From contig MU004182.1 in assembly GCA_010093605.1 (NCBI GenBank), positions 254,231-318,230 of the forward strand: a stretch of 64,000 bases of DNA, in the 5' to 3' direction. This DNA is from Lophium mytilinum (Eukaryota; Ascomycota; Dothideomycetes; Mytilinidiales; Mytilinidiaceae). The notes beneath the pieces are model-generated. The model had not been told where the DNA came from. It made no database searches and saw only the letters and a list, made by a program, of their open reading frames with translations. Each line of letters starts with the position of its first letter. The first letter of the stretch is position 1. The position numbers and the translations under genes are program-made. Of this stretch, positions 17,199 to 64,000 are shown piece by piece.

Positions 17199-20100
17199 AT
17201 GGGACGCGCGAAGCTTACCGAGGAGCGCAAGTCGCCAACGGAATCCCACGAATTGGAAGAAAGCAAAGAGCAGGATGTGGATACTACTGAATTAGAACAC
17301 ATCCGCAAGGCGGGCTGGAAGGCGCTGTTTAGCTTCACGACCAAAGCGCATCTAGGGATCCTGGTGTCTGCGACGATCTCATCCATAATCTTCGGCCTGG
17401 TCCTCCCAGCAGCCTCGGTCTTGCTAGGCTTAATAGTCAACCAGTACACCAACTTTGGAGCGGGCAGGATCTCCGGCGGCGAACTTCTGGGGAATGTGTC
17501 AAAATATTGCATTTACTTGACAGTCTTGGGAGCAGCTTCCTGGATCACAAACATATTCAGTCAAACGCTATGGTTGACCTTTGGAGAACTGCAGGCGAGA
17601 AGCGCCAGGGACCGCATGTTCAATAATCTTCTATCGAAAGATATTGAATGGTACGACATGAGGAGGAATGGAATAGGCGCCTTCCTGCCACGAGTCCAGA
17701 CGTGAGTCTGACCTTATCTTAGCCAGTGCACAGATTTACATCAGTCAGGCAAATCCGCGAGCTTCAACTAGCAGCATCTCAACCTATGGCAGAAGCGGTT
17801 CAATGTCTTTCCACAGGCATTGGAGCTATCGTGCTTGCACTTGTCTTCTCGTGGAACCTCACCCTCGTCATCATAGCCACGGTTCCAATCGTTTTCATCG
17901 TCATGACAGTCCTATCGTCTAGAATCGGCCCACACGTTCACGAACAAGGGGAGAGGCTTCAAGGAGCGATGAAGTATGTCACGAACGCCTTCCAGAGTAT
18001 TGAAATGGTCAAATGCTTCAACGGACAAGACTCTGAGCTTGGGAGGTACACCGGAGCTATCAGAGAGGCTGCAAAGAGCTATACCAGACAAGCCAACCTA
18101 AAATCCTTACAGTTAGCGTTTCTGCAGTTTTGCACGCTTTCAGTCTTTGTACAAGGATTCTGGTATGGCAGCACACTCATTGCTCGTGGAAAGCGGAGCC
18201 CTGGCCAAGTCATAACGACCTTCTGGTGTGCTTTGGTGGCGGTCCAGGCTGTGACTTCGTTCATTCCTCAGCTGATAGTCATTGAGAAAGGCCGAGTTGC
18301 AGGTGCCAAACTTCGAGCGGTAATGGCTCAGATGCAAGCGCAATCAAACACAACAGGGCATGTTAGTGGAATCAAACCAGGTCTGTGTAAAGGAGATATC
18401 GAGTTCGATAAAGTAAGCAGCGCCTATCGAGGGAATATTTGGGCTATACTTACCAACTACTAGGTATCCTTCGTCTACCCAACGCGTCCTTCACAGCTGG
18501 CGATCAAAGATGCGACAATGTTCTTCCCTGCCGGAGATACTACATTCGTTGTAGGGAGAAGCGGCTCTGGGAAAAGCACTCTTGGGCAGTTACTCTTACG
18601 ATTCTACGATCCCCTAAAAGGTACCATTCGACTGGACGGACAACCTCTTAAATCAATTGATGCTCACTGGCTCCGTGAAAACGTTACCCTGGTGGAGCAA
18701 CATAGCGTGCTGTTCGACGATTCAATATACAACAACATTGCTATCACAAAGTCCGAGGGCGGTATGCCCGATCTAGATGCCGTCAAGGACGCTGCTCAGT
18801 TTGCTCTACTCCAACAAACGATCAATGACCTTCCCGATGGTTTCGGCACGATTGTTGGCTCCAAAGGGAGTGCATTGAGCGGCGGCCAAAGACAACGTAT
18901 CGCTTTAGCTCGGGCCCGAATTCGAGATACAGCAATCCTTATACTAGATGAGTCTACTAGCGCGCTAGACTACATCACAAGATCGCTGATGCTCGAGTCC
19001 ATTCGAGCCTGGCGTCGTGGCAGGACAACGATCGTCATTACGCACGACATATCTCAGATCCAGGCCCAGGATTATGTCTTCGTTCTTGACAATGCCCAAG
19101 TCGTCCAAGAAGGATATAGGAAAACGATGGAGGAAGTGAAGGGCTCGCCATTCCATACATTCCTCACGGAGCCGGTGCCTTCACCAACGCACTCGCTAGA
19201 TGACGCGGACCCTCTAGATAACCTCGAGGAACAATCATCCTGGACTGTGTCGGGTTTAGGCCTCGAAGGGATATCCTTTCCAGCGCAATGTGATCATCGT
19301 CTATCAAACGAGTCAATTGATCCTCTGGACATGTACTTGCAAGAGCGTACCGAAACTTCCTTACGGCCTATCTCAGCCGTATTTGCTAGCCCTCTGACTC
19401 AAGACACCCGAAGATTATCTACTGCTCATCACACATCGCCATATTGGAGGCTCACCGCGAACAGCCTCAGTGCAGAACCATCAGCAACCGTTCGTCACGG
19501 ATCTGTACACGACCTCGAGGAGTATACCTTCTTTGATCCAGATCCCAAAGTCTTGCCAAAGCCCTCTCCTAAAGCGATAATCCGCTCGGGGACACCAGTA
19601 CAGCGAGTCGTCTCAAGTGCAGATCGAATGGCGGCTAGAGAGGGGAAGTTGACACATGGCGACAGCCCACCAGACAATATCTCGCGTGGTAGAAGTGTAC
19701 GCCATTTACTACGAAACCAGCAGCATTCACGACCCCAGGCTGTGAAGCCAATCAGCACGCTGAAGATTCTATCCAGTGTCTGGCCACAACTAGATTGGCT
19801 AGGTCGCCTATATCTTGTTTTAGCATTCCTCACCGCATGTGTGCATGCTGCTGCTACCCCCGTCTTTTCGTATGTCTTCGCTCAACTCATCTCGACGTTC
19901 TACATTTCGAACAATCGCAGCCAGAAGGCCATGATTTATTCGCTATCAATCCTAGGCTTAGCAATCGTTGATGGCGCCGCGACCTACGCCTTCCACTTTC
20001 TTTTCGAGTATAGCGCGCAGATTTGGATCACCAGTACGAGAATCGAAGCAATGAAACGACTGCTCGACCAACCTCGACAATTCTTCGACGAACAGGGGAA

Positions 20101-21688
20101 CGAGGTGTCTATCTTGGCTGAATGCCTGGATCATTTCGCGGAAGAAACTCGCAACATGCTCGGCCGTTTCACAAGCATCATCTTTGTTGTGGTGTTGATG
20201 ATGCTGATTGCCTTGGTCTGGAGTCTGATCACTTGCTGGAAGTTAACTCTAGTCACCATTGCCATTGCTCCAATCATGTACGCCATAAGCGCAAGTTATC
20301 ACAGGATTAGTGGTAAGTGGGAGGGCCACTCAAACGAGGCGGACGAAGCTGTCGGGATAGTACTCCATGAGACCTTGACGAATATCCGCACTGTTCGAGC
20401 TCTCACACTGGAGAAGGCTTTCCACCGGAAATACGTGGATGCCACCACCGCCGCCCTCACAACTGGAATGAAAAGAGCACTCTACTCGGGAATTTTCTTT
20501 GGACTCAGCAACGCTTGTATGCTGTTCTTCCAGGCCTTCCTGTTTTGGTACGGAGCTACCCTCATGAAGTCAGGCGCCTTCAATGCCACCGATGTTATTC
20601 AGACCCTCACAATCCTTCTTATGAGCACAAATTATGTTACCACGACGATTGTGTTCATCCCTCAGATTGGAGCGGCGAAAGATGCAGCGGCGCGCCTTCT
20701 ACGTCTTGCCAACTTGTCACAAAACTCACACGAGCATGTTGGCACAGTACAAATTCCATCTGCTGGAAGCATCGTCTTGCAAAATCTCCAATTTGCGTAT
20801 CCTTCGCGTCCCACCCACCCAGTACTTCACCAAATCAATTTGGAAATCCCCCCCAGTAGCTGCATCGCCATTGTAGGTGGTTCAGGCTCCGGAAAATCCA
20901 CTATCGCCTCCCTACTCCTCAATTTATACCCATCCGACCCCAGCAGCTCTAAGCCGACCGAAATCACCGTCTCTGGTCGCGACATCAAGCGCATCCACAC
21001 ACCCACCCTCCGCTCTCTCGTCTCGATAGTCTCTCAAACCCCAACTCTTTTCCCTGGCACAATCGCCGACAATATCGTCTACGGCCTTCCCTCTTCTTCC
21101 CCACACACAGCCCTGCCAAACATCCGCATGGCAGCCGCGGCCGCCGGCATCGACGACTTCATCGAGAGTTTACCATCCGGCTACTTCACTGGCGTGGGCG
21201 AAGGCGGCATGGGCATCTCCGGCGGCCAGGCCCAGCGCATCTCTATCGCTCGAGCTCTTGTTCGCCATCCCGACGTCCTGATCCTCGACGAAGCGACCAG
21301 CGCTTTGGACGTTGAGTCTGCGACTATCATACGTGAATCAATCCGAAGACTCATCGCAGACTCGCAGAACGACGCGGCGTCCTCGTTCCGGAGGCCATCC
21401 GTGGTTGACACTTCGAGCTTGGCCGGAAATCACGAGCGGGAAGTTTCAAGGAGTATGACTGTGATCATTATCACGCATTCGCGCGCGATGATGGAAATTG
21501 CGGATAAGATAGTCATGCTAGATCAGGGCTGTGTTGTTGAAGAGGGTGGGTTTGAGGAGCTGAGGCGGCGGAAAGGGGAATTTGCGAGGTTGTTGGAGTT
21601 TGGAGGGCTGGATGATGGGCAGATGCAGGTTGAGAGGGAGAAGCTGGAGACGGGATGGAAGGGGAAGGCGAAGGATGCGAGGAGTTGA
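17199..21688 (+). CDS. STE6: STE6-like a-factor type pheromone ABC exporter
   Basis: The exons are 17199-17701, 17749-18412 and 18464-21688, giving 1463 aa. It is a full-size ABCB transporter: membrane domain 1, nucleotide-binding domain 1 (Walker A VGRSGSGKST, signature LSGGQRQRIALARA, Walker B ILILDESTSALD), a long linker, membrane domain 2, and nucleotide-binding domain 2 (Walker A VGGSGSGKST, signature ISGGQAQRISIARAL, Walker B VLILDEATSALD). The domain 1 signature and the R-x-R-R-Q-F-F-D-type segment (LLDQPRQFFDEQGNEVSIL) fit fungal STE6-type proteins, which export farnesylated mating pheromone at the plasma membrane. A multidrug role cannot be excluded from sequence alone. The linker between the halves is about 240 residues. 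Both introns are supported by motif continuity (RVQT-QIRELQ and EFDK-VSFVYPTRP). Confidence 0.87.
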
Positions 21689-22724
21689 GGTTGCTTGAGC
21701 GGTAAAAGACTGTTTAAGAGAAGGTGAATGCAAAAGTATTCACTCGCTCAACGTCCGAGGAGCAAAAGAAACTGGCCACTTTGCGATGTACAGTTTGAAA
21801 TATCGTGAGATTTAACACATTGTGCAATTGCTTGCGATGATTGAGTGTGCTATGTTCAGCGCCCAATACGGTGCTATTAGGTCTCAACTTCTGAATAGGT
21901 TCTTGGGCGAAGTAGTGATATGAAACTTTAGTAGTGAAGCATTAGGGGGGAACTGACGGGCACTGATATAGTAGCATCATGGCCAACGACAACATCTGAC
22001 GCGTCGTAGTATATGATATCTAGGAGCAGTACCCAGGGACATCCTGCACTTAGATAGGCCCAACTACCTGCAGAAGAAGGGGGCCGCCAGCTCAGCCCCA
22101 CCACATACTTAGCCGCAGCACCACCTAATATATATATAGAACTTCCTCAATTTCTCAGCCACAACCCTAGTTTCTGCTTATGCACGCAAAGAAATCAAAG
22201 TCTCCATAGCCGTGCGCGCCTATTGGGCTGGATCTTATACGTTAGTAAAGACAGCAGCGTTTGAAAATAATACTAAGCCTTCATACATTTAAGTGCGTCT
22301 CCATAGTACTAAGTCGAGGATAGAGCGCCTAGCAGCCAAAATGCTCCTTCAGTTGCAGAGGAGGCCGGCCTTAACCTCTAACTAGACCATAGTATAGCTC
22401 TACGGCTTAGACCTACTATAGAAATATTAGAAAAGGATAGATATGCGGCATTGTGCTAAGTACCTAGGTAAGCCAGTGGACAGGAAGGAGCGCCACTGGC
22501 AATACCGTCGGCTAATCAGGAAAGGCGTGGCAAATGTGATAGGAGAGGCCTTATCCGACTTTTTAGGACGATGAGCGGCAATAAAACGGAAACGCAATCA
22601 AGACTAGATGTGGGGCTAAAGGCTGTTGCATTGATGATGGTGAGGAAGCTAGCTAATGAGCGGAAGGAAGAAAGACACACAGAAGATGCTAAGTAATCCT
22701 GCTGAACAGAAGGGGTCTGACAGC
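21689..22724. other. Gene-poor decayed stretch
   Basis: After the STE6-like stop the sequence has no open frame of note. The part from about 22010 to 22480 is rich in TA and TAG steps (for example near 22130 and 22380-22440), a look shared with the AT island at the window end. A segment at about 22455-22495 reappears near 25238-25268 (aagccagtggacaggaaggag against aagccagtaggcaggaagggg), showing that pieces of this block are duplicated. Confidence 0.5.
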
Positions 22725-23305
22725 GATGAAACAGGCGCCTTGTGGAGACGCTGAGAGGAGAGCAGATTTAAAGGGCTGTGTCTCAGGCTCGCTAGTAGCA
22801 GGTTAGATCGGGTACAGTTTGGAGGGCAGGAGAGGTCCAGCCTTGCAGGGCGATGTAATTGGGGCCTTACTAGGCGAACAAGACAGCAGGGTGAAAATCG
22901 GAGCCTCTGGTTGAGTCTCGCTGGCAGCAGTTTGGGCAGGTCGGGGCGGTAAATCTAACCGGAGAGGCCTTGCAAGGGGAAGCTGATAGTAGGGAAGGAT
23001 GTAGCTTAAAAGGTAGGAGATACCCGACCTTCCATAGCGACGAAACTGGGGCCTTGTGAGGAGAGGCTGATACCAGGGCAGATTTGAAGGCTTCGGCTTC
23101 AGCTTCTCTGGTAATAGCTTGGTCTGCCTGAGCGACCCTAGACGGTAGGAAGGAGGTGGCAATCTTGACCGGAAAAGCGCTCAAAAGAGAGACTATGGAC
23201 CCGACCTTCACGAGCGTTTCGGTAGAAACACTCACAGGAGCTAGCACACTCTAGGGGAATGTTATGACCGGAAGCTTCTAGATTGTGGCCGCTTTCGTTG
23301 TCGGA
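22725..23305 (-). pseudogene. Decayed relative of the BRCT gene, relic 1
   Basis: Read on the minus strand, this stretch parallels the middle of the intact BRCT-domain protein at 26003-27685. It has KLPVITFP, then PVSVSTETLVKVGSI, then IATSFLPSRVAQ, and SASPHKAPVSSLWKVG with LLPFKL, where the intact gene has KLPVVTIP, PVSASSETPVKVGAI, FATSFLPSGVAR and SASPRKAPIQSPWKAG with LLPPFKL. Two in-frame TAG codons stand at about 23278-23280 and 23251-23253. The SASP module is repeated: further versions, in shifted frames, are SCSPSKAPITSPCKAGPLL near 22810-22890 and SASPQG near 22745. It has frameshifts and no BRCT part. I read it as a pseudogene; whether it was once a full gene is open. Confidence 0.7.
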
Positions 23306-23357
23306 CTAGATCTAATTAAAGTGCAGTGGATTGGAGGAGGGAGACGATGGCTCCGGG

Positions 23358-23705
23358 CTAGATCTGAAGGTTGGGCAGGTGGGGCCCTGGTTGTTTGACC
23401 GTGTTGGTGGCTACGGATGGCGAACTCGAGTAGCTATCCTTACTGGCGTCGTCGGGTTTGACAGTCGCACACTCTGTGCATATCATGCCCGTAAATGGGC
23501 GGGTCCTGTCGCTCAGGCGGAGATTAGTGTTTGTGCGGGTGAGGCCACAACTCGAGCATGTGGCAGACTTTGGTAGCCCAGCATCCTCCTTAACAAGAAG
23601 GCGCGTGTTTCCAGGCAGCCATTCACATTGTCTGCCTGGCGATCTGGCCTCGACAGAAGTTTCGAGGCTGACCATCAATACAGATGCGATGAGCCACGTG
23701 CACAC
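23358..23705 (-). pseudogene. Unrecognised ORF remnant with paired cysteines
   Basis: An open minus-strand frame carries CEWLPGNTRLLVKEDAG and then CSSCG ... GMICTECATV, two Cys-x2-Cys pairs about 22 residues apart, as in zinc-ribbon or GATA-like fingers. No clean start or flanking exon is visible, and the surrounding block is decayed, so this is probably a gene remnant. The family is not recognised. Confidence 0.35.
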
Positions 23706-24002
23706 TCGTGGCGTCTCCGGTGTAACCTTCGCAAGAATCCGCCAGTGTTAACGTTCATCTAAAGCGTCGAAGTCCTCGACGGTCTCGCAGAAAATTATTG
23801 CAGTGCGAGGCCGATTTCGATTATCTAAACACATGGTAATAAGCGTGGTCTGGATATCCCAGTCGTCCTCAATACAGATAAGCGGTAGCATGTAAAAACC
23901 TTTAACCGTAAGGCTTTACGCTTGTATCAGGGATACAGTCGCGTTAAACATCGCGGACGTTAACATCCCTATAACCCATCCCATACCCGCATCGTGAAAT
24001 AT

Positions 24003-24310
24003 TTATTGGAATGGACTGGTTACAGCTAGACGTGTAACTTCGCAATAGAAGTGGCCCAGTATCTCGTGTTGATTTAGCTGTGCCTCTATAGTGGTCTGCA
24101 GCGGTAGATCTATGCGAGGGGTTTTGACGTTGCTCAGCGTCTCTTGCATCTTATAAACAGACGTTTGGATGTCCTTCCAAGGTAGCATGCTTGGGTGAAT
24201 GTTTGCCTCGGGTTCCTTTGCTCCGCTACAAGAGTTCAAACGTTGTAGGACGAAGGAGGTGTTGGTGTTGCAATCGGCTAGGGAGGTGTATGTGTCGCTC
24301 AACTAATATC
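24003..24310 (-). pseudogene. Unrecognised ORF fragment, protein-like
   Basis: A minus-strand frame of about 100 codons has normal protein composition, with segments such as ANIHPSMLPWKDIQTSVYKM and IEAQLNQHEILGHFYCEV. It begins right after a TAG at about 24303-24305, which closes an upstream open stretch reading ETPPRKQRRREESSVSPVRY. The two may be exons of one former gene downstream of relic 2 on the same strand. I do not recognise the family. It lies in a decayed block and is given as a fragment. Confidence 0.35.
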
Positions 24311-24499
24311 GGACGGGCGACACAGAGGACTCCTCGCGACGGCGTTGTTTTCGTGGCGGGGTTTCAATTTGAGGACGCTTCTCCTATAAGAGCAGTTAGT
24401 AAGGGAAGCATAGATAGGAATGTAAGCACAAACTCGTTTGGGCAGCTGTGCAGAGGGCGGGGGCAGGATGTCCAGACCTGGCGATCTCGCCGATCTATG

Positions 24500-25075
24500 G
24501 CGGTGGAGACTCTAGCGCGTAGTTGAAGGCCCATGTGTGTTGCTCGTAGGGTGCTTTTCCTGCCTGGGGCGGGTGCGGAGGTCGTTGTTGTGAGGCGGCT
24601 GCCTCGGCGTCGTCGGTGAGGCGTAAGCGGTTGCTGGCGGCGATGATAGAACTTCGGACTCGTCTCTCGGCCGTTTTGCGGGCCTTGTGGGTGCAGTAGG
24701 CGGGGACAGGGCGACGTTGCTAGAGCTTCTTGGGAGAGGCAGATGGGGGGTGGCAAAGGGAGACTGAAACGGCTGCAATTTGAATGGTGGCAGAGTACTC
24801 GCTTTCCATGGCGACATTATCAAGGCCTTTTTAGGCGACGCAGACAGTAGAGTGTGAATCGAGGCCTGGGATTCAGGGTCTTTGACAATGGGTATGGCTG
24901 CCTGAGCCACCTCAGACGGTCGCAGCGAAGCGGCAAATCTGAGGGGGAAGCCTTCAATATAGAGGCTATAGTACCAACCTTTACAGGCGTGGCGTTGGAA
25001 GTAACTGGCACCTTTTCGGGGCTTCTTTTCACCGGAAGCATGGAGAAAGTAGCCGCTCTCGCCCGTGTCGTAAAA
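24500..25075 (-). pseudogene. Decayed relative of the BRCT gene, relic 2
   Basis: The minus strand encodes TTRARAATFSMLPV, VTSNATPVKVGTIASILKAS, then after a one-base shift FAASLRPSEVAQAA, then LLSASPKKALIMSPWKAS with LPPFKLQPFQSPFAT. The intact gene at 26003-27685 has VTRARAATVSKLPV, VSASSETPVKVGAIASILKAS, FATSFLPSGVARLA, and LLSASPRKAPIQSPWKAG with LPPFKLNQIQSPFAT in the same order. The frameshift is near 24935-24945, where the relic has one base less. Beyond this module the frame continues into a different, Ser/Pro/Arg-rich tail (AKRPRDESEVLSSPP), so the two genes share a module but not the BRCT end. I call it a pseudogene; a diverged family member with a sequencing error is the alternative. 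Confidence 0.72.
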
Positions 25076-25333
25076 TGATGTGGTTCGAGGTCGCCCGCGT
25101 GGGTGGGCTTGTAATATGGTGTTCGCTGGTGTGATAGAGTACGTCGACAGCGACTTAGTGAAAGGTTAACTGCTGTGTTGTTCTATGAGTGAGGGAGGAA
25201 GCTAGCTATAACGGAAGAATAGGCATACGTTATTATGCTAAGTAAGCCAGTAGGCAGGAAGGGGCGCTACATTGGGGTGTCCTGCCAAGTTTAATAATAC
25301 TTAAAAGTAGTAAAGTGCTATTAGGTTTAGATA

Positions 25334-25760
25334 GCCTGAGGCACCTCCAGCAGCGACAAGATGGTGTACATAGTATCAAATTATTGAGAGAGCTGCAGGC
25401 GTCGGAGGTGGCCTGTCAAATCCAACGGTACTCCAAAGTGAATTGGTGTTGTTGAGTTTGGGACGCCTGAGGCACCCCTAACGGCGGCATCACGGTGTGC
25501 GCCGAATCAAGTATCCAGAGGCCTGCAGCCGTCTGAGGTGCCCTGTTGTGTTCAACTGGTACTCCAAAATGATGTGGTGTTGTTGATTTGGGAGGCCTGA
25601 GGCACCTGTAGCAGCGGCAAGATGATGCGTACAGTATCAACTATTTACAGGCCTGCAGCCGTCTGAGGTGCCCTGTTGAGTTTAATGGTACTCCAAAATG
25701 ATGTGGTGTTGTTGAATTTGGGAGGCCTGAGGCACCTCTAACGTCGGCATCAGGTGGTGC
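25334..25760. repeat. Minisatellite array, about 130 bp unit
   Basis: The marker GCCTGAGGCACC recurs at about 25334, 25465, 25595 and 25725, i.e. with periods of 131, 130 and 130 bases. Each full unit also holds TACTCCAAAATGATGTGGTG (or a close variant) before the marker and GCCTGCAGCCGTCTGAGGTG after it. The last unit ends about 240 bp before the BRCT gene ATG. Confidence 0.85.
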
Positions 25761-26002
25761 CGACATGCCGATCGGCAGACGCGTCGCGTGGGCGGCGCCG
25801 ATCTAGGCAGCAGCGGGGTGGCTGGGAGTCGGAAAATAAAACGGTTGCCCGGCCAACGCTCTTTCTTCTTTCCTCCACCACACTTCCCACAACCATCACA
25901 ACTGCCACGCTTTCATCTCCCACCAACCCCACACCACCCCGCAAAGCTCCATCGCAACTCCCTCCATCTCCAATCCATCAATCACCCTTTGAAGGAGCCA
26001 CC

Positions 26003-27685
26003 ATGGTCCTTACCCGCGCGCAAAGAACCGCGCAGTCGGCAGCGGTCGCCGAGCCAGCCCCGCCAGCTCCGAAACCCGCCCTGAAAGCTGCACCCCGAAA
26101 GCCCGCCAAGGCTGCTGCTCCGAAGCCTGCTCCCGCGAAGCCTGCTCCCAAGAAGCCTGCTCCGAAAGCTGCTGCTCCCAAGACTGCTCCAGCCCCGAAG
26201 CCTGCGCCAAAGACCACGTCGAGGGTGGCAAAGGCTCCCAAAGAGGCCCCAAAGCCTGCGAAGAAGGCCGCAAAGCCTACCATCAAGACCACGAAACCGG
26301 CCGATAAAGTCACAAAAACGACCGCAAAAGCCCCCTCAAAGGCCCCGATCAAGGCCTCAACAGCCGCCAAAAGGCCGCAAAAGGTGGCTGTTATCACACC
26401 TGGCGTCCAGGCAACAATGCGAGTAACACGGGCGAGAGCGGCCACTGTCTCAAAGCTCCCGGTCGTAACAATTCCCCAAAGCGTGACAGTTCCTGTGAGT
26501 GCTTCTAGCGAAACGCCTGTAAAGGTTGGAGCCATAGCCTCAATCTTGAAGGCTTCGCCCATTAGGTTTGCTACCTCTTTCCTACCGTCTGGGGTGGCCC
26601 GACTTGCTTTGCCTGCTGCCAATGAGTCTCAGTCAGAGGCTCCGATTCCGACCCTGCTGTCGGCTTCACCTCGAAAGGCCCCGATTCAGTCTCCGTGGAA
26701 GGCTGGACTCCTCCCGCCGTTCAAATTGAACCAGATACAATCTCCCTTTGCCACGTCGGTTGCCCCGTCGAAGCCAGCCCAACTTGTCGAATCACCCCTC
26801 AAAGCCTCTGCCTTACGCTCTCCAATTAAGATGTCCTCTCCAAAGAAGAGCGTCACCTGGAACCAAGCCGCTCCACAGGCCAAATCACCCGAACCTCTAC
26901 CTGCCATGGCTGGACCTCTTGATGGCGCTGTAGTCTACCTCGACATTGTCCATCATGGCGAAGATGCCAGCGCCTTGTTCGCACCACTGGTCGAGCCGCT
27001 TGGAGCTTCACTTGCCTCCACCTGGACAGCTGATATCACGCACGTGGTCTTCGGCCAAGGCAGTCAGGCGACGCTGGAGAAGGCCGTCGCAACTCACGGA
27101 GCTGTGAAGTGTGTGAGCATTGGATGGCTCATCGAGTAAGTTCCTTCCAAATATTTGATTCAAAACTCTGCTAACTCTACGTTTTACAGCTGCGACAAGC
27201 ACAAGACCTGGCTCGACGAGACTCACTACCGGACCGATTTGTCCCATATTCCTGGAAGCTTGACCTATCAGTCGCCATTCCCCTTCACAGCTGCCACTCC
27301 GCTCGCTGCTCGCGCTCCTATGCAGACTCCTTCAAAGGCTGCTGCAGGAGATGTTGCAATGGACGACACTCTCGATGACTTCGGCAACAGTACGATCAGC
27401 GACACGCACTGGAGCTTCCCGACTCCTACTATGCAAACTCCCGTCTTCATTCGCAGACTCAACGACGAAGACAAGGAAAACAAAGCCCCAAAGTCCCTCA
27501 CCGACTCGCCCGAAGAGAGACTCGTTCAGAAGTCGGCCCCACCCAAGCAGATAGGAAGAACACTGCTTGACGTCGGCACACCGGCCCACAGCGCGTTCAA
27601 GAGGCGCTTGATGGCAGGCAAGAGACGCAGCGAGGAGTTTGCCCCAAACATTGGCAGCCCTTTGAAGAAGATGAGGATGTTTTAG
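26003..27685 (+). CDS. BRCT-domain nuclear protein with Ala/Lys/Pro-rich N-terminus
   Basis: The exons are 26003-27135 and 27190-27685, giving 542 aa. The first 130 residues are Ala/Lys/Pro-rich, like a histone H1 tail, and probably bind DNA or chromatin. The middle has SP-rich modules (PVKVGAIASILKASP, LLSASPRKAPIQSPWKAG). One BRCT domain lies at about residues 305-400 (GAVVYLDIVH..., VTHVVF-like ITHVVFGQG, and VKCVSIGWLID, where the intron falls inside the motif). The C-terminal tail has a KEN-box-like DKENK, many SP/TP sites and a basic end (KRRL, KKMRMF). The layout resembles microcephalin-type or mitotic chromatin proteins, but this is inference. The ATG fits the Kozak context GCCACCATGG. 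Minisatellites lie on both sides, and two decayed relatives lie upstream on the other strand. Confidence 0.8.
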
Positions 27686-27832
27686 ATGGACATTCGGAGA
27701 GAATTGTTGGTTTTTTAAAGCACGGAGTTGGACGGATTAGCATAATACCCGGAGGCTTATGATGGTTTTTCCGGCGAAAAGGTTCTTGTTTTCGGGTTTG
27801 TTTCTTCCTTTTCTTTCTGGGTTTTTGTATGA

Positions 27833-28060
27833 AGCTGGGCCCCGTAATGGAGGGCCAGGTTTCCGGTTCTTGTTTGGCGTTTTTGGGGTTTTTATAGCTG
27901 GGCCCCGTAATGGAGGGCCAGGCTTTGGGCACTTGTTTTCACGGTTTGGGGGGTTTATTATAGCTGGGCCCCGTAATGGAGGGCCAGGCTCTGGGTACTT
28001 GTTTTTCTTTTGGTGGTTTATAGCACTGAGCCACAGCGGGCCAGGCTTTTTGTAGATTAA
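27833..28060. repeat. Minisatellite array, about 63 bp unit
   Basis: The marker AGCTGGGCCCCGTAATGGAG recurs at about 27833, 27896 and 27962, and a weaker fourth copy (AGCACTGAGCCACAGCGGGCC) starts at 28022. The periods are 63, 66 and 60 bases. The core GGGCCCCGTAATGGAGGGCC contains GGCCC and GGGCC, which can pair as a short hairpin. The array starts about 150 bp after the BRCT gene stop codon. Confidence 0.88.
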
Positions 28061-28287
28061 TGAACTGATGATGACGAGTCTCTTGATTCTGTGCTGTGTG
28101 ATGAGTGGGTTGCTGATTGCTTGACACCGTCTGAAGTCCTCCAGCATGGACTCAGAAATTAGAGCTGGATGTCACGTTTTGGAAAGCGTGAATTGGATCG
28201 GGGTGTTGGCCGGTTTTGAGCAGTATGATAGCCACTTGAAGCGTCTTTGCAGTGCCATCTAGCAACGCAAACCAATCTGGTCCTCAA

Positions 28288-28700
28288 GCAGATTCTGGAG
28301 TTCCGAACACCACGTTTCCACCCGACGCCCAGATCTGGGTGGACAATACGAGGTATTTGATCGGTGGGCTACCTTTTTGAGCCACCTCAGACGGTGTCAA
28401 GCCCCCGTCAAAATCATGTACCAACCCAGCAGATTCTGGAGCTGTCTACATTACATCGTCTTGCGACGTCTGATATTGGCTATAAGTCTCCATACTTTTT
28501 CTCATCAGTCTACCTCCTTGAGACACCTCAGACAGCGCCATGTAGCTGTCAAATCAATTGACAGACCAAGCAGATTCCAGAGCCCATCACATTGCATCGT
28601 CTCACAAGCCTTCATTCTGAGCAGAAAACTCCATGCTTTTGATCATCAGGCTACCTCCATGAGCTACCTCAGACAGTCTGGACCCATAATATATACACTC
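28288..28700. repeat. Minisatellite array, about 141 bp unit
   Basis: Units begin with GCAGATTC(T/C)(G/A)GAG at 28288, 28429 and 28570, exactly 141 bases apart. Each unit later carries CTACCT...GAG(C/A)(C/T)ACCTCAGAC(G/A)G. Copies differ at many positions, so the array is old. Degraded similarity may extend left to about 28120. It ends about 60 bp past the stop end of the sulfurtransferase gene region. Confidence 0.8.
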
Positions 28701-28761
28701 GCTAGTCTGCTCTGGGTTGAAGGGTATCGCATCATTTCATTCGTATCCTCTCCCATTCCTC

Positions 28762-29853
28762 TTACTCAGTTTTCACAATCAGATTCTCAGATGGCTGGAC
28801 CCGCTGCGCCCACTCCGTCCAGCTCCCATCGTATAGCCGCCGGCCTTCCTCTGGGAACCCAGCCTCCACGAGCGCGGCGTCAATGACAGCGGCTGTGACG
28901 CCGGTGCCGCAGGAGCTGATTATAGGCTTCGTGGGATCGATGCCTTTGGACTTGAAGAGAGTCTGGAGCTCAGAGGCGGGAAGGAGGGCTTTGGTAGTGG
29001 GGTCGAGGAGATCGGAGACTGGGACCGATATGGAGTAAGGGATGTGGCCTGAGGAGAGTCCTGTACAGCACCATATCAGCACCAAAGAACTTCAAGAGCG
29101 TGCAAGGAATGAAGGGGCGTTCAAGAGGCACTCACCAGCTCTAGGCTCCGGATCCACCCCCTTCCACCGCCCCAAGCTCCTCGCATCCAAAATCTGCACC
29201 TCCTCCGCGCCCTCCTTCCCCTGCTCCCGCGCTATCTCCTTGACATCCTCAAACGCCACCACCTTCACCGCATCCAGCTCAGGCACAGGATAGTCAACCG
29301 CGTCCACCTCCGCAGGCGTCCCGCTCTCCAGCGGCAGCCCCTCCTCGCACCACAGCTTGAAGTTGTTGAGCACATGCACATTCGGATGGCCAAACACCTT
29401 CAGCGTCCACCCGACGCGCGGCGCGCTGAAGATGCCCAGCTCCTTGCTGTCGTAGACGACGACGCTGTCGTCCTTGCGGATGCCGAGCCGGCCCATGGCG
29501 GCGGCGAAGTCGGGCGCCGAGGGCAGCATGTGCGGGTACGGCGAGGCCGGGTCTTTGACGGCGTCGAGGTCGAAGAAGCGCGCGTGCGGGATGCGCCCCG
29601 CGGTGAAGGTGTCGCGGCCGGTGCGGCCGTCGTTGGGCAGGAACCAGGTCGCGCAGAGGGGGATGATGCGGGGCGCGGTGGAGAGGCGGGAGTGGATGTT
29701 CTTCTGCAGCGCGGCGTGGAGCTGCGAGGGCGTGACGAGGTAGGTGGGGAGGTGGTGCTGGGAGGAGTCGGACATAGTGCGGCGGGCTGCGGTGGTGAGA
29801 GAGAGGGAGGGGGAGAAGAGGCGGGTTGTGCGGCGGATGCTGGTGAGGAGCAT
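28762..29853 (-). CDS. TUM1: Mercaptopyruvate/thiosulfate sulfurtransferase (TUM1 type)
   Basis: The exons are 29853-29136 and 29060-28762, giving 338 aa. There are two rhodanese domains. The N-terminal one has RIPHARFFDLDAV and VVVYDSKELGIFSAPRVGW; the C-terminal catalytic one has ILDARSLGRWKG, GHIPYSISVPV and the active-site loop SSCGTGVTAAVI, with the persulfide-forming Cys in CGTGVTA, the loop type of 3-mercaptopyruvate sulfurtransferases. In yeast Tum1 feeds sulfur to tRNA thiolation. The first 25 residues are rich in Arg/Ser/Thr without acids, a likely mitochondrial presequence, and a second Met (MSDSS) about residue 27 could give a cytosolic form. The intron (75 bp) joins EPRAG to LSSGHIPYS. 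Confidence 0.9.
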
Positions 29854-31511
29854 GGTGGAAGCTGGAGAGGATTGCGGTGGAGGGATTACGGGGGGTTTGG
29901 AGTAGTGGGGAGCTTGGAGAGTGGGGCAAGAGCTTGGAATTTGTAGATACGGGGGGGCAATTGAGGGTGAGGAGCTCCGGGGAAACGGGTTGCACAAAGC
30001 ATGCCGATCGCAAGGAGCTCCGCACGCCTAGACTTCAAGTCGGGCCGTTGCTCACATGGCCAATTCACTTGGGGAGTGCAGACTTGGGAAGTGACGAGGG
30101 GGTTGTTGCGAGTCTTTTTCTATCAAAGGTAAGGATGGGAAGGGAATATACGTGAATTGACGACATGCCAAGCATAAATTGCGATAGGCATTACAAACTC
30201 AACACCAGATGGACCGTGCGCGGCATCCACACAGTCATCTCTACCTCTCAAGTACTATTTCAATCACATTGTTCCTCCAGATCTACCAAAAACAGATCAC
30301 ACGTTCAACCGGCCTCCAACATGTCACGGTAATGGCTGGTTCACTCCTCTTCTTTCCTACCGACCTGCCCACCATTACTATGCCGAGGAGAGTTACATAA
30401 GCCCACCCATGATCTCCTTTTCTTTTAGAGTTACTAAAGTGCATTGAAGCACTCTGTTTACTAGCGAAATGGCGTCATATGAACTTGAAGGCAATCTCAT
30501 CCTTCCTCGAATGCAGCATCTCGTCTAGCGGTGTCCGCGATTGCGGTCCAGTCTGCCGTCCACCGAAATGTGCAGTTATGGGCTTCTCTGAGATCGAAGA
30601 ACCTCGGAGAATACATATCGGTGCGCAGTGCAGCATGACCCCTCAGTCTTCGGCCTCGCTCAACCCTCATTCGACGGAACAGCGCAATGAGGTTGCACGA
30701 CACCAGTCTCGCATCTGCACCGACCATGCGCCCAGATTGACGCCAGCATCTGCCACTGCATTCTTGCATTACCTTCTCCACTCGATGTTGTTTGCTAGCT
30801 CAAGCTTCTCTTATCATCTCCTTGTGATAGATCACATTGGTGGTGTAGACCCTGATTATCATCATGCAGGAGCTCGGATTTCTCTATTCAAGTGTTCTGT
30901 CTCTTCAAGCCACCATCTGCACGAAGCCGTCGGCTAGCCCTGTCTGAATATTCATCATATGCGGGCCCAGAATTGCTTCCTGCCAATGGCATCGCCTATG
31001 AACTCGGAACTCGAACGCACGTAGCCGTTTCATGGCAAACGCCCTATTAAAAGGGTGCAGATGCGATTCCCCCGGCTCTCGCCCAGCTCACTTCTGACCA
31101 GTGTTCCTGTCTCAGGGCGGCTATTCGTTGCGCAGTCAGAACACGCTTTCGATTGTATGTCAAATCTATAACAACTCTATACTCATTATATACCCACTCT
31201 ACTCTCTGGTATTCTATAGCACAGATATTGGAACTTCTAGCGAATTTGACTGAACCCGCACTTCGTCACCCTCGATCTCAATCATCGATATACTCATTGG
31301 CCCGTTGCCGTGGAGCTACGCTGTCCTAATCTGGACCTTATAAGGTCAGCTACTGTTTTCCATCTTGAGTTTAGAAAAGAGTGATTCCTGGTTCCAGCGG
31401 CATGATGTCAAATGTCATAGCCGACTTCCCGATGATTGAAAGTGCAAGCAAGCTAACGCATATCAACAGGCGGGCGACAAGGACGTAGAAGGGCGAGCCC
31501 GACTCGCCAAC
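29854..31511. other. Intergenic region of about 1.7 kb
   Basis: The left end is the sulfurtransferase promoter. A plus-strand ORF from 30479 to 30937 (152 codons, ATG start) has no recognisable domain and an unremarkable composition, so I do not call it. Near 31440-31470 a GCTAAC...CAACAG sequence looks like an intron 3' end and may belong to a 5' UTR intron of the coiled-coil gene. Confidence 0.4.
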
Positions 31512-57441: not shown

Positions 57442-60400
57442 ATGACAGACCGCGCACGGGAGCGGTTGGAGACGCTCGTCGGCGAGGTTAAGGTAGATTA
57501 TTATTCTCAACGTCCATTTCCGTCTATTGATCTAACGTTGACAGAATCAAGAACGCTATCTCGCCACCGCTAGAACCAAGGACGAAGCGCTCAATCATGC
57601 ACGTCTGGCCGCAGAGTTCTCCTTTAGAGCTTTCGAGCTGTCCGCGGAAAAAAACGAAAAGGCTGACCTGAAAGCTAAATTTGAAACATATCTAGATCGG
57701 GCTGAGCGGATCAAAGCAGCAAACTGCTGGCCTCTGTTGACATCCGGCAGCATCTTAGTCAATGACTCCATATCTCCACAGTCAGGCAATGCTTTCGATG
57801 ACCTCTCGAAGGTCGCTGCCAATGAACCGCTACCGCGTGCTTTTGTCAACAAACTTACCATTGGAGAAAATTCGTCTCTCACCAAGACTATCAGTCAGCC
57901 CACTCATGATATACCCATCAGGGCTAGCAGATCATCCTCACCACCGGCATCAAAAGTGGAAGATTCGCCACTTTTGTTGTCTGATCTCTCACTTGAGCCA
58001 AGGTCTTTATCTCTGGAGAAGCTTGACTCAATTCCACCGAACGGCAATGCTTTGACTTATGCGCTATTCGATGTAGAGCATGAGGTAATAGTCAGCAGTC
58101 AAGTCAGCGCACTGCCTTCCGTCCAGCATACCGCGCGCCTAGTAGACCTAAAGCACCAGGGTAATGGCTCCGCGCCTTCCATGGATGTCAAGCCGCTCAA
58201 GGAACCGATTTCAAGCCGGACACTCACCAAAAAAGAACAGATCATCTTACTAAAGGCTTCGAGAGTTAACGGCTTTGTTTTTCCCCCTTGGAAGGAGTCA
58301 CCCGGTCCGTCCGAATTTGTTCTCGAAAATCAGGCTGAACCCTACCTGTAGGTTGCGCTCTCTCTATGTATCACCATTGCCTAACATGTGTAGGGATGCT
58401 GCGGAATTGAAGCTGTCTTCACATCAGATGGACCACTTCCTTTCCTGGGCACGCGCTAAGGATGCACTTCCGCCTCCGTCCTGGTTCCCTGGCGATCGAC
58501 AAAACCTGGTTCCAACTATGCGAGCAAGTCGCTCCGTAGACCTTGTTCAAGATGCTGCCACAGACTGTTCGGTCGTCGCCAGTTTGTGCGCGGGCATAGC
58601 AAGGACAAAACGGGGGCATGATTCGGTCAGTAGTTCCCCCTCGTTTCCAATCTTGGTCTCATACAATACAGGTATTCTACCCGATATTATGGCCGCGCGA
58701 TCAGCCGAGTAAACGGCCTAAGATCTCTCCAAACGGTAAATACATCGTTCGCCTCAATTTCAACGGCTGCTGGAGAAAAGTGATTATTGACGACCGACTT
58801 CCATTGTCAAAAACAAATCGGACCTTGCATGTGGTCGATCGAAAAAATTCTGGGCTCTTGTGGCCTGCCCTCCTTGAGAAGGCTTACCTCAAAGTAAGAG
58901 GAGGCTATGATTTTCCTGGAAGTAATTCTTGTAGTGACCTGTGGGCATTGACCGGATGGATTCCAGAGCAGATCTATCTACAAGAGTAGGTGCGTTTAAT
59001 CAACGTTTATAAAACATTGCTAAAATATACCATAGAGGCGACCTCGTTCCAAGCCAGCTATGGACACGTCTTTATGCTGCCTTCCTTTACGGCGACGTTC
59101 TCGTTACATTAGGCACTGGTAAAATGGCACACCGGGCAGAACGAGAACTGGGCTTAGAAGGCCAGCACAGCTACGTTGTCCTCGATATGAAGGAGACTGA
59201 CCAAGAGAAAGCCTTTCTGGTCAAGAATCCTTGGCTTGATGGGAAAGGCTGGAGAGGCCGTCGCCCGTCATTAGACTTTCTAATGGAAGACTCGTCGCCA
59301 GGTGGGACTTATCCAAGGTCGATAGAAGCAACAAAATCAAACGCAAAGAACAATCCTTACCCCTCAACATTCTGGATTGGTCTGGATAGCGTGGTACAGC
59401 ATTTTGAGAGCTTGTACTTGAATTGGAATACAGGTCTCTTCAGCCATCGACAGGACATCCATTTCTCGTGGGATCTGGCAGAAAGCTCCACTGCGCCTGG
59501 CAGTGTGGCTGACCATCCTCAATTTTCCTTTACTTCTGACGTTGGCGGGATAATTTGGTTGGTTCTAAGCCGCCATTTCCGAGACACAGCTGTAGATGCG
59601 CATGATCAGTCGGACGCTTTCAACGATGGCACGGTCCGCTCTAACCAGGACAAGCCCACCGGTGACGACCCTTTGAAGGGCTACATGAACATTTATATTT
59701 ACGATCGACAAGGCGTGCGGGTGTTTATCAAGGACAATTACATCGAAAGAGGCCAATACGTTAACACGCCTCAGAGCTTACTTCGCTGGCAGTGCGAGCC
59801 AAAATCTACCTACACCCTAGTGATAGACCAGGAAGATTTGCTCCCATCGCTCTACACGTTTACGCTTTCGGCGTTTTCGAGCTCTACAATAAGACTCGAG
59901 CAGGCCTGGAAAAAGTACCCACTCGAGAAGAGGATATCCGGCAGGTGGACAACTGAAACAGCCGGAGGAAATACACATTCCACGAAGTACTTTGACAACC
60001 CACAGTATAGTCTGACGATCGGACACCACACGCCTTTGGCCATTCTAATCCAAACGCGTGACGGCCGCCATCCTGTTCATGTAAAATTGGTCCATGGGCA
60101 CGGAAAGCGTATTCACAGCATTCAAAGCCGAAACATTCTGGTAGATTCTGGAGAACATCGCGACGGCTGTGCTCTGGCCGAAGTACATGACGCTCCTCCA
60201 GGAACCTATACTATCATTTGCTCAATGTTCGAGGCAGACCAAACCGAGGAGTTCTCATTGACCGTATACAGCGTGTCTGAATGTCATATTAGACCTATAC
60301 CTCGGGATGGGGCCGGGATGGTCTCAACAAGGTTGACTGATGCTTGCTTTAACAGTTTGGTCAACAAGGTTGCAGCTCCGCTCGTACCTCGCAGGATCGC

Positions 60401-60752
60401 AGGCCTCACCGTTATCGTCAAGTTTCTTTATGCTAGAACAACCAATACAACGGCAGCGCTAGGAAAAGACGTGAAGAATCGAAGCCCATTGCGGGTATTG
60501 ATTGAAACGGGGAGAGGACCACAGAAGAAAACCGTTGCAAGCAGTGACAATGGTGAATTTAGTGACGCTGGGACGGTCAGAATACAGAGCGTAGATTTGC
60601 GACCGGACATGCTGTACGACGGAGATATCTGGCTGGTTTTAGAGAGGCTCACCACTCCCGGCAGCGCTATTGAAGAGAGGTTTACCGTCGAGGTACTCGC
60701 AGATGCGCCTCAAGCGTTCTCGGCAGGACTTTGGAGAATTTGGGAAGATTGA
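57442..60752 (+). CDS. palB: Calpain-like protease PalB/RIM13
   Basis: The exons are 57442-57492, 57545-58347, 58394-58625, 58672-58985 and 59036-60752, giving 1038 aa. PalB processes PacC/Rim101 in the ambient-pH pathway at endosomal ESCRT sites. An MIT-like domain is expected at the N-terminus (ARERLETLVGEVK..YLATARTKDEALNHARLAAEF). The catalytic residues fit the calpain triad: C343 in ATDCSVVASL, H511 in GQHSYVV and N531 in VKNPWLDG. GLLWPALLEKAYLKV and the C-terminal domains (beta-sandwich-like) are intact. The intron donor at 58986 is read as GTAGGT, joining YLQE to GDLVPSQLW. Divergent from the peroxisomal carrier. Confidence 0.93.
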
Positions 60753-61079
60753 GAAGTGAGCGCACGATGTGAGGGAAACGAGCACCTCTAAGGTGCGAAG
60801 GTTTAACGTATAGCGCATAGAACTGCTCCTAGTCGATGTTAATAAACCACCTTAAAACTAGTTCCTATAACCTTTTTAAATGGTAATGTGTTGAGGTAGA
60901 TCGGTGCAGGTATGTGAGCGGCACTTGATGAGTGTTTCCGCCCCTTCACGATTACGGAGGGCAGGGCTCTATCATCTATCATCCCTTCTTCTTTGATATA
61001 ATACAGTTGGAGTTATACTCTCCAACCCTCTCTCTCCTCCAACGCCACAGTAAAGGCTAGTTATAGGTCCTCCTAAGGT
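60753..61079. other. Transition into AT-rich island
   Basis: This stretch follows the PalB stop. It changes from normal base mix to AT-rich toward the right. No feature is visible in it. Confidence 0.4.
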
Positions 61080-61316
61080 TTAGTAACAGTTTAGATATAA
61101 TGGTCTAGATTAGTCTATCTAATATAGGGGAACTAGGGTCTACAGTAAGCTTAAGAGTATGTAGATAATTACTAATAATCAATAAGAAGAAAGTAGATAG
61201 TAGAGAGAGGTTAGATTATGGAGAATATACTATTTTAAGGTGTATTAAGTTAGCTTATATATAACCTTATACTATAAAAAGATTTAAGAAAAGAATATAT
61301 AGAGTAATAGATACAC

Positions 61317-61397
<81 letters not shown>

Positions 61398-61426
61398 CAT
61401 AAATAGATAGATAGATAGATAGATAT
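61317..61426. repeat. GATA tetranucleotide microsatellite
   Basis: A run of GATA/TAGA units with a few interruptions (AAAT, ACAT), followed by a TTAG run at about 61430-61450. Shorter GATA runs occur at about 61940 and 63830, inside copies of the 200 bp repeat. Confidence 0.9.
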
Positions 61427-61454
61427 TTTATTAGTTAGTTAGTTAGTTAGTATA

Positions 61455-61722
61455 AGTTTTATACTAAAATAGGTATTATATCCTTATATATAGTAGGCTT
61501 AAAAGCCTCTAGATAGAAATAGAACTGTAAGTGTTTAAATATAATAGAGTAAGTATTAGATAATATTTATTATAAGAATATTGGAGAAGCATTTTATAAC
61601 GCATTAAATAGTATATATATATAACTGTATTACTATTAGTATAAAATAAGACTTAAGTAATATAAGTTGTATCTATCTCTCTATCTATCTATGCTTAGAC
61701 TAACTCTATATCTTTAATAGGA
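61455..61722 (-). repeat. AT-island repeat family, inverted copy A
   Basis: Its reverse complement lines up along its length with copy B at 61918-62175 (for example AAAGATATAGAGT against AAAGGTATAGAGT, and TTTAATGCGTTATAAAA against TTTAATGCATTATAAAA). Most differences turn C or G into T or A. Confidence 0.75.
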
Positions 61723-61917
61723 AGGAATACTAAAATTGTAATTCGACCCGTATTATTATACGGGCGTTTCTTTCCGTCTTATTTAACTTATAAGGCCTAG
61801 ATAAGAGTAAGAATTACATTAATTACTTGTGTATAATGTTATCATTACTAGCGGGTGCCTTTAAAGATATTACTTACTGCTTATAGCTAGAACTATAGAG
61901 TTTTTACGGGTCTTAGT

Positions 61918-62175
61918 ATTAAAGGTATAGAGTCGATGGGAGAATAGATAGATAGATAGATAGGAATTGTATTGCATGAGTTTTATTCTATATTGACAGC
62001 AATGGAGTATATATACAGCATTTAATGCATTATAAAACGTTTCTCTAACGTTCTTGTAATGTTATCTAACGTTCGTTGTATCACGTTTAAACGCTCACGG
62101 TTTCGTCCCGTTTAAAGGCTTTTGAGCCTATTATGCGTAAGGATATAACGCTTATGCTATTGTAATCCTTACACT
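61918..62175 (+). repeat. AT-island repeat family, copy B
   Basis: It contains AAAGGTATAGAGTCGATG, a GATA run, GACAGCAATGGAGTATATAT, and ACGCTCACGGTTTCGTCCCG. It is a direct repeat of copy C at 63808 and is inverted relative to copy A. Confidence 0.88.
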
Positions 62176-63252
62176 TAGTACTGCTAATATTAGGCTTAAT
62201 ATCTATAGATAATAGAATAAATAGAGGAAAAATATCTAAAAACTATCTAATATCTAAATTACCTAGAATATAACCTAGGGCTATACCTAGCGCCTATTTT
62301 ACTAGCAACGTAATTATTCTAATAGAAAGATAGAACACCTCTCTACTAGCTACGTTGAAAGCCCTTATATCTACAACCTAATAATACTAGAACTAGAAGG
62401 ACTAGAGGAGTAAGAGTAAAGATAGTAGCGGTTTAGTTAGTAGATAATAAGGGATAATAGCTACGCGGCGTTAAGTTATTAAATATCTTTTATCTATAAA
62501 ATATAGTTAGCCTATTATTAGAAGAATATTACAGGTAATATAAAGGGGCTATTAGTGCCCGGGCTAGCAGCCGTAAGGCGTAGTATATAATAGTAGTAAT
62601 AGTTAGCTCTAGGCCTCTATAGACGCCTAGTAGACTTATAGTAGATAGTAGCTAGCTATTAATAGTAAGTATATATATATACTTTCTATTTATTCCTCTT
62701 AAGTATAGCTATAGAGCTCCGGCTTATAGTACTTCTACGCGCTAAGAATAAATAAAAAGTATATAGTAGCCTTTCTATAATAGTAAGTATATAGCTTTAG
62801 CCTAGCTATCTAGTAGTAAGTATAGAATGCAGCCTTACTACTTTAGCCGGCTAGAGTCTATTATATAGAGAGGAGGATTAATACCTTACTAGTAATACTA
62901 TCTATATAGCCTAAAAAGATAGATATATATTAGTCTATTAAGAGGTAGAGGTAAGCTATAAGATAGGCTTATAGAGTAAATTAGGGGTAGATAGATAGAA
63001 TAAAGTCTAATACAGCTAGATACTATAGAAGCGCTCCGCGTGGAAAATTATAGTAGAATAGCTAGATAGGTAGCTTTATATCTATCTTACTATATATTTA
63101 GCTAGCTAGATATATCTACTTCTAGATAGAATAATGCATTTTAATAGCTTATTCTACAGTAGCTCTTATAGATAGACCTACTATATATCCCCTATAAAAA
63201 AAATATAATAGAGAAGGGCGCTTTACGCTAGATATAATAGAGAATAAGGTTT

Positions 63253-63360
63253 TTACCTAAATACTACCTAGTAGTAAACAGTTATCCCTTATAAATTAGC
63301 CTAGATAGAATAGCTATATAGACCCTAATAGAAACTATACTAGCGTAATAGAATCTAATA
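63253..63360 (+). repeat. Left arm of an inverted repeat
   Basis: Starts TTACCTAAATACTACCTAGT and runs through CCCTTATAAATTAGCCTAGA. It pairs with the arm at 63697-63802 over about 105 bases. Confidence 0.85.
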
Positions 63361-63696
63361 AAAAAAATATAATAGTATTTTTAATAGTTAGCTAGTTAGG
63401 TACTTAATTAGTTAGTTAGATTGTTAATTAACTACTTAGTTAGCTAGTTAGTTACTAATAATAGTAGGTTAGATAGATAGTATAATAGATAGATAGATAT
63501 ATAAAAAGGTTAGAGAATAAAGAGATATATATAATATATCTACTTTATCTTTTAAGGTATTATATATACTTAGAGGGTAAAATAAGTACTTATAATTCTA
63601 ACCTAGATAGTAGATAGAGATATAAATAGAGATAAGTAAGTAGCAAATAAAAATAGAAATTAAATAGAATTAGGTATATTATTATTACTACTATTA

Positions 63697-63802
63697 TTAA
63701 ATTCTATTAAGCTAGTGTAGCTCCTGTTAGGGTCTATATCGCTATTCTATCTAGGCTAATTTATAAGGGAAAACTATTTACTACTAGGTAGAGTTTAGGT
63801 AA
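63697..63802 (-). repeat. Right arm of an inverted repeat
   Basis: Its reverse complement starts TTACCTAAACTCTACCTAGT and follows the left arm closely. It ends six bases before copy C of the 200 bp repeat. Confidence 0.85.
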
Positions 63803-63807
63803 ATGTC

Positions 63808-64000
63808 AAAGGTATAGAGTCGATGTGAGAATAGATGGATAGATAGATAGGAATTGTATTGCTTGAGTTCTATTCTACATCGACAGCAATGGAGTATATA
63901 TACAGCATTTAATGCATTATAAAACGTTTCTCTAACGTTCTTGTAACGTTATCTAACGTTTGTTGTATCACGTTCAAACGCTCACGGTTTCGTCCCGTTT
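63808..64000 (+). repeat. AT-island repeat family, copy C, cut by window end
   Basis: It is nearly identical to copy B and keeps more C and G than B, for example AACGTTATCTAACG where B has AATGTTATCTAACG. It is the least mutated of the three and continues past the window. Confidence 0.88.

Follow-up and report, generated by a model that had tools for sequence, protein, structure and literature searches.

Lophium mytilinum harbors, within a 64,000-nucleotide stretch of contig MU004182.1 (C2:254231-318230, hereafter the window), an intact gene for a BRCT protein and, upstream of it on the opposite strand, two relics that are decayed copies of its middle, with a DNA identity of 69-76%. Judged from their sequences, the relics are probably truncated, inverted pseudogene copies of a segment of the BRCT gene, fossils of an array altered by unequal recombination, and relic 1 is the probable fossil of a longer repeat array than the one that the living gene retains. 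Both relics lie in the 4.3-kb intergenic gap between the ABC transporter gene on the left, which ends at 21688, and the BRCT gene; at its other end the locus is bordered by a rhodanese-like gene. All whole-genome searches described here concern this one genome (43.18 Mb in 24 contigs).

Decayed copies of the middle of a BRCT gene

The gene, the module that was copied and relic 2 are located as follows (window coordinates).

26003-27685, plus strand: intact BRCT gene encoding 542 amino acids, with an open frame across a GT-AG intron (exon 1, 26003-27135; intron, 27136-27189; exon 2, 27190-27685)
26426-26754, plus strand: module copied by the relics, residues 142 to about 251 of the BRCT gene, delimited by DNA alignments
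24750-25068, minus strand: relic 2, decayed copy of the module, with a one-base shift at about 24943-24958 and one 9-base deletion (alignment and tblastn)

Relic 2 (25068-24750, minus strand) aligns with gene positions 26426-26754 at 232 of 330 identical columns, scoring 126 where shuffled sequences reach at most 15. On the same strand, relic 1 aligns twice: 23297-23006 with gene positions 26433-26724 (202/294 identical, score 102 against a shuffled maximum of 16) and 22945-22800 with 26598-26743 (108/146 without gaps, score 70 against 15). A tblastn search with the gene protein agrees, giving E(2) values of 1e-17 for relic 2 and of 2e-15 and 5e-5 for relic 1. A preliminary description of this DNA had read the minus-strand stretches as repeats of the gene's middle module and proposed aligning the three regions as protein and as DNA; both kinds of alignment are significant. 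Several of its observations also hold: the plus-strand gene is intact, with an open two-exon frame and a match to PF12738 (E 1e-6, 29.1 bits) above the curated cut-off of 22; relic 1 contains two TAG stops and repeated SASP modules; and relic 2 carries a one-base shift, seen as a frame change in tblastn and as a one-base gap at the same place in the DNA alignment. These stops and this shift, together with the change of frame from unit to unit and the inserted repeat in relic 1 and with the missing BRCT part, are disabling changes of the kind expected of pseudogenes. The copied segment contains none of the introns of the living gene.

Neither relic carries the BRCT end, as had also been stated: the best match of BRCT or other gene parts in the intergenic DNA has an E of 1.1. 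The sensitivity of this search was gauged with planted copies of the BRCT part (the low-complexity N-terminus and the C-terminus lie outside this control), each with two deletions. With 25, 30, 35 and 40% substitutions, tblastn recovered 39/40, 40/40, 31/40 and 20/40 of the copies and blastn 40/40, 40/40, 40/40 and 37/40. Because a planted BRCT as decayed as the relics is detectable, its absence from them is not a matter of low power.

The copies are confined to this locus. A whole-genome search with the protein yields six matches, namely the gene, four relic pieces and, on contig C9, a weak match (E 0.053) to residues 330-491, which lie outside the module. The module DNA gives four matches, every one at this locus, and module-bearing copies were not found elsewhere in the 43.2-Mb genome. 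The module copies are thus local and do not form a gene family.

Tandem units in relic 1

Relic 1 comprises the following parts.

23131-23297, minus strand: part A1, with two TAG stops (126/166 to the gene, z 56.5)
22986-23130, minus strand: unit B1 (58/88 to the gene unit, 56/79 to D3, 77/121 to C2)
22801-22985, minus strand: unit C2, in a different frame (95/124 to the gene unit, z 41.7)
22726-22805, minus strand: partial unit D3, terminated by a dispersed repeat (56/79 to B1, z 17.4)
22565-22725, no strand assigned: E1, long terminal repeat (LTR)-like dispersed repeat between D3 and F4, related to repeat E2 (below), with 20 more places in the genome
22517-22552, minus strand: unit F4, start only, KASPITFATPFL (26/35 to the gene, z 6.6; 22/29 to C2, z 4.4)

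Read in its own direction, the order is A1, B1, C2, D3, E1 and the start of F4, and relic 1 is a tandem array of about four units. Its earlier boundary at 22725 has to be moved: the edge there is that of the dispersed repeat (about 22565-22725), and a further unit start lies beyond it at 22552-22517. Because E1 sits inside relic 1, the relic is read as older than the E1 insertion. The presence of tandem units makes recombination within the repeat array likely.

The units are not equally related. C2 is nearer to the living unit (95/124) than B1 is (58/88), and nearer to it than to B1 (77/121). In a tree of five units, B1 and D3 pair with 97% bootstrap support, and the gene unit and C2 stand apart from the rest with 65%. 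Approximately unbiased (AU) tests of six topologies under three models reject those joining C2 to B1 or to D3 (P 0.003-0.013); joining relic 2 to C2 is not rejected (P 0.051-0.103), and joining it to B1 is borderline (P 0.043-0.060). As far as the sequences can tell, an array that predates the split of the gene and relic 1 is favored, not proven.

Some units diverged under coding constraint, which two of three comparisons support. Mismatches were counted by codon position (1, 2, 3) in frame-blind DNA alignments and compared with a neutral null: B1 and D3 differ at 7, 1 and 13 sites (P 0.002), and relic 1 and the second part of relic 2 (relic 2b) at 17, 11 and 25 (P 0.0085). In the A part, gene-to-relic mismatches amount to 10, 11 and 19 in one comparison and 6, 7 and 13 in the other, counts that would fit a constrained gene set against a freely decaying relic. 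The stops are as expected of neutral change, with 2 in the 99 codons of relic 1 (means 0.8-2.0) and none in the 107 codons of relic 2 (P 0.11-0.41).

The copied module belongs to a region of the living protein that is rich in [ST]Px[KR] sites, the consensus of cyclin-dependent kinases (CDK). Nine such sites occur in the BRCT gene, and seven of them fall within residues 142-300, where shuffled sequences have a mean of 0.54 and none of 5000 shuffles reaches seven; the N-terminus (1-141) and the BRCT part have none. Residues 142-251, the copied part, carry four of the nine (171, 185, 222 and 230). With this clustering, the living gene's sequence is that of a predicted CDK substrate. The living gene may hold a vestigial second unit past residue 245: three protein comparisons give P 0.05, 0.01 and 0.24, and the DNA comparison gives P 0.34. 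The N-terminus, strongly biased toward Ala, Lys and Pro, resembles in our reading a linker-histone tail, and the closest solved structures to the BRCT part are microcephalin BRCT chains (PDB 3pa6, 2wt8, 3ktf; best match E 3.3e-7), as judged over the BRCT domain.

In a possible course of events, the segment would have begun within a functional coding gene as tandemly repeated units, each about 60-70 residues long, whose number was altered by unequal recombination. Copies of the segment would then have been inserted, inverted, into the 4.3-kb gap and have decayed under little or no constraint, so that relic 1 would retain about four units and the living gene one clear unit. From what is known of such families, the living protein may be a chromatin or cell-cycle protein that combines a linker-histone-like tail, a CDK-controlled linker and a partner-binding BRCT domain, and the linker repeats would determine the number of phosphorylation sites. 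Fungal coding genes can have intragenic tandem repeats, whose units are gained and lost by recombination. In contrast to these, the units described here are long (about 60-70 residues) and diverged, and it is a dead copy alone that preserves the longer array.

Origin of the relics

Several observations weigh against an old array preserved in a dead copy. The remaining codon-position comparison, B1 with C2, shows no significant excess (14, 11 and 17; P 0.158), and the AU tests do not reject the topology in which all units of relic 1 form one group, B1 and D3 being paired (tree 2; P 0.25, 0.449 and 0.409). The likeness of C2 to the living unit could also be due to gene conversion. As to phosphorylation, sites 264, 273 and 279, three of the seven clustered ones, fall outside the copied segment, and full [ST]Px[KR] sites are left in small numbers in the relics: two in relic 2b, one in A1-B1, four in C2 and none in D3 or F4. 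Because the relic units have few full sites, a longer array need not have had proportionally more of them.

Part of the same evidence would suit a different history, in which relic 1 split from the BRCT gene as a functional paralogue and only then enlarged an array of its own; it would have lost, or never possessed, the BRCT part and have died later. The third-position excess between its B1 and D3 (P 0.002) and the tree uniting all its units (AU P 0.25-0.45) are in keeping with this, and the relics also show fewer gap events (8 per 212 mismatches) than the repeats used as yardsticks (48 per 530 for E1, 13 per 146 for E2). This shortfall is not relied on, since the count takes in the gene branch and some of the eight events are compensating one-base pairs. 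Nevertheless, C2 is nearer to the living unit than to B1, the A part behaves in our reading like freely decaying DNA, and relic 1 has no start, BRCT or other domain attached to it, so that we regard a former paralogue as rather unlikely, though still to be reckoned with.

The remaining explanations turn on what surrounds the relics.

24512-24749, minus strand: open tail of 74 codons past relic 2, unrelated to the gene (comparisons with gene parts, P 0.13-0.36)
23360-24301, minus strand: decayed orphan gene of 314 codons with three TAA, situated between the two relics and matching contig C1 in three places (best E 5e-12)
25130-25271, no strand assigned: E2, a 142-base LTR-like repeat located some 60 bases upstream of relic 2
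22433-22501, no strand assigned: fragment, beyond F4, of the LTR-like repeat to which E1 and E2 belong

The preliminary description had seen in the relics a recombining gene family with shuffled ends, that is, genes that swap ends around a common middle module. The module does start at nearly the same place in both relics (gene positions 26426 and 26433), their upstream flanks differ from each other and from the gene, and the tandem units of relic 1 speak for unit turnover by recombination. This last part of the proposal is likely to be right, but no family was found: neither the six protein matches nor the four module matches include a member elsewhere in the genome. Nor is a shuffling of the ends shown: among 28 comparisons of the flanks of relics and gene, the single significant one (z 9.6) is a dispersed repeat, and the flanks match none of the gene ends tested. 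The tail of relic 2 was considered as a displaced piece of the gene and discarded, having no match in three comparisons (P 0.13-0.36). The differing ends are unrelated flanks, made up of repeats, the decayed orphan gene and the unmatched tail, and truncation accounts for them without exchange. End-swapping within a family is therefore very improbable. The common start itself suggests one partial copy that was recopied, or two copies with a shared breakpoint.

Capture and transport by a retroelement, with the relics as cargo bracketed by LTR-like repeats, would explain why E2 (25130-25271) and the fragment at 22433-22501 stand on either side in the same orientation, and the repeat family does include, at one place, a pair of identical 142-base copies separated by 801 bases. 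Against this, the block between the repeats has no second copy in the genome and includes the orphan gene and the unmatched tail, and E1, inside relic 1, looks like a later insertion; such a transfer is decidedly improbable. Chance likeness of low-complexity coding DNA rich in Ala, Lys, Pro and Ser, for which the biased composition of the protein's N-terminus might speak, can be given practically no weight, as the N-terminus is not the matching part and the long alignments at 69-76% identity score many times their shuffled maxima; the scores refute a resemblance through low complexity.

Truncated and inverted pseudogene copies, the explanation that we prefer, have counterparts elsewhere. Among yeasts, duplicated pseudogenes are, in the part of the catalogue that we draw on, often truncated at either end, and some lie near retrotransposon sequence (Lafontaine and Dujon, 2010, PMC2876123). 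In that respect this kind of finding is ordinary, as the relics too are decayed duplicate copies of the frequently end-truncated type. Compared with the yeast cases in that part of the catalogue, both ends are gone here in both copies and only a disordered segment is left, one copy has more repeat units than its parent gene, and the host, to judge from its gene content and introns a filamentous fungus, is in our reading not a hemiascomycete. What is less ordinary is the detail: a single disordered segment alone gave rise to two inverted copies, and one of these dead copies seems to have more units than the living gene.

Disordered phosphosite regions evolve quickly and leave few traces. If the preferred explanation is true, a pseudogene that holds an older, longer array beside its living gene would be one of the rare records of such a region becoming shorter. 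The locus also calls for caution, in that short homologous pieces in intergenic DNA may mimic shuffled genes when they are merely truncated copies.

Repeats and base composition around the relics

Compared with the whole genome, the 4.3-kb intergenic stretch has at least 32 matches, among them itself, the gene, 20 E1-like and 7 E2-like places; the others are two of another short repeat and one of a 130-bp array, and all these counts are lower bounds. All 30 places outside the locus were examined and correspond to 29 loci. At one of these, L032, an interval of 801 bases separates two identical copies of 142 bases. Their ends are TG...CA, and beside one of them is TGGCGCCCGACG, which we take to be a primer-binding-site type of sequence. 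On the grounds of these direct copies, their ends and the adjoining TGGCGCCCGACG, the family is LTR-like and is perhaps a miniature LTR element; solo LTRs and miniature LTR elements share these features of 142-base direct repeats with TG...CA ends. The identity of the two copies suggests recent activity of such an element. The inspected flanks of the repeat copies showed no evident target-site duplications.

Relic 2 contains 18 bases (24903-24920) that are found again at 28378; their 17-base core (CCGTCTGAGGTGNCYCW) lies on the minus strand at 24903-24919 and 28378-28394. With up to one mismatch the core occurs 194 times in the genome, against 6 times for a reversed control; twenty loci examined are those of a short dispersed element, several with an inverted partner about 75 bases further on. 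The copy in relic 2 is exact, and the gene and relic 1 have versions with two and three mismatches at the homologous place. Within the window, a profile built from 22 core sites detects relic 2 (E 5e-7); the gene reaches only 4.4 bits (E 0.1), and relic 1 gives no match. This match is taken as a lead only, because the score lies mostly in the core and the core was picked since relic 2 carries it. The CDK-site module might be a repeat of the birth-and-death type, have begun as a small dispersed element that inserted into the gene, been amplified as a coding array and kept its longer state in the dead copies, an origin that we hold to be improbable. Papers containing pieces of the core include, by title, none on fungal repeats.

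Tandem repeats flank the BRCT gene. Just upstream, 25334-25763 holds about three copies of a 130-bp unit, one more of which is on contig C18; just past the gene there are 66-bp tandem repeats (27833-28005), and at 28285-28700 repeats spaced at 141 bp contain either the 17-base core or a variant. An inversion of the gene between the left 130-bp and the right 141-bp arrays was considered and rejected, as the arrays align only over a 21-base stretch (z 1.3).

Searched against the genome, the tail of relic 2 finds, apart from itself, a single place, at an E of 0.75. The orphan gene at 23360-24301 matches no Pfam family, and its matches on contig C1 appear to be two adjacent copies. An Rfam scan of 20000-30000 gave no match, no relatives were confirmed in prokaryote genomes and viral contigs, and a literature search at the level of titles and abstract openings found nothing on the BRCT gene or its relics.

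As an agent of decay, repeat-induced point mutation (RIP) leaves no clear signal in the substitution counts of the relics: CA to TA changes amount to 7/40 and other C to T changes to 28/204, and CG to CA to 14/45 and other G to A to 13/86, despite an asymmetry between TG to TA (11/50) and its reverse (1/41). Two 2-kb bins cover the relic region and have TpA/ApT ratios of 1.16 and 1.01, compared with 0.52-0.93 in 28 other bins (the relic region and 60001-64000 excluded), a rise that may simply reflect non-coding DNA. At the end of the window, over 60001-64000, the composition is as in RIP-mutated DNA: G+C falls to 38% and then 30%, TpA/ApT is 1.23 and then 1.66, and (CpA+TpG)/(ApC+GpT) is down to 0.8 and then 0.3.

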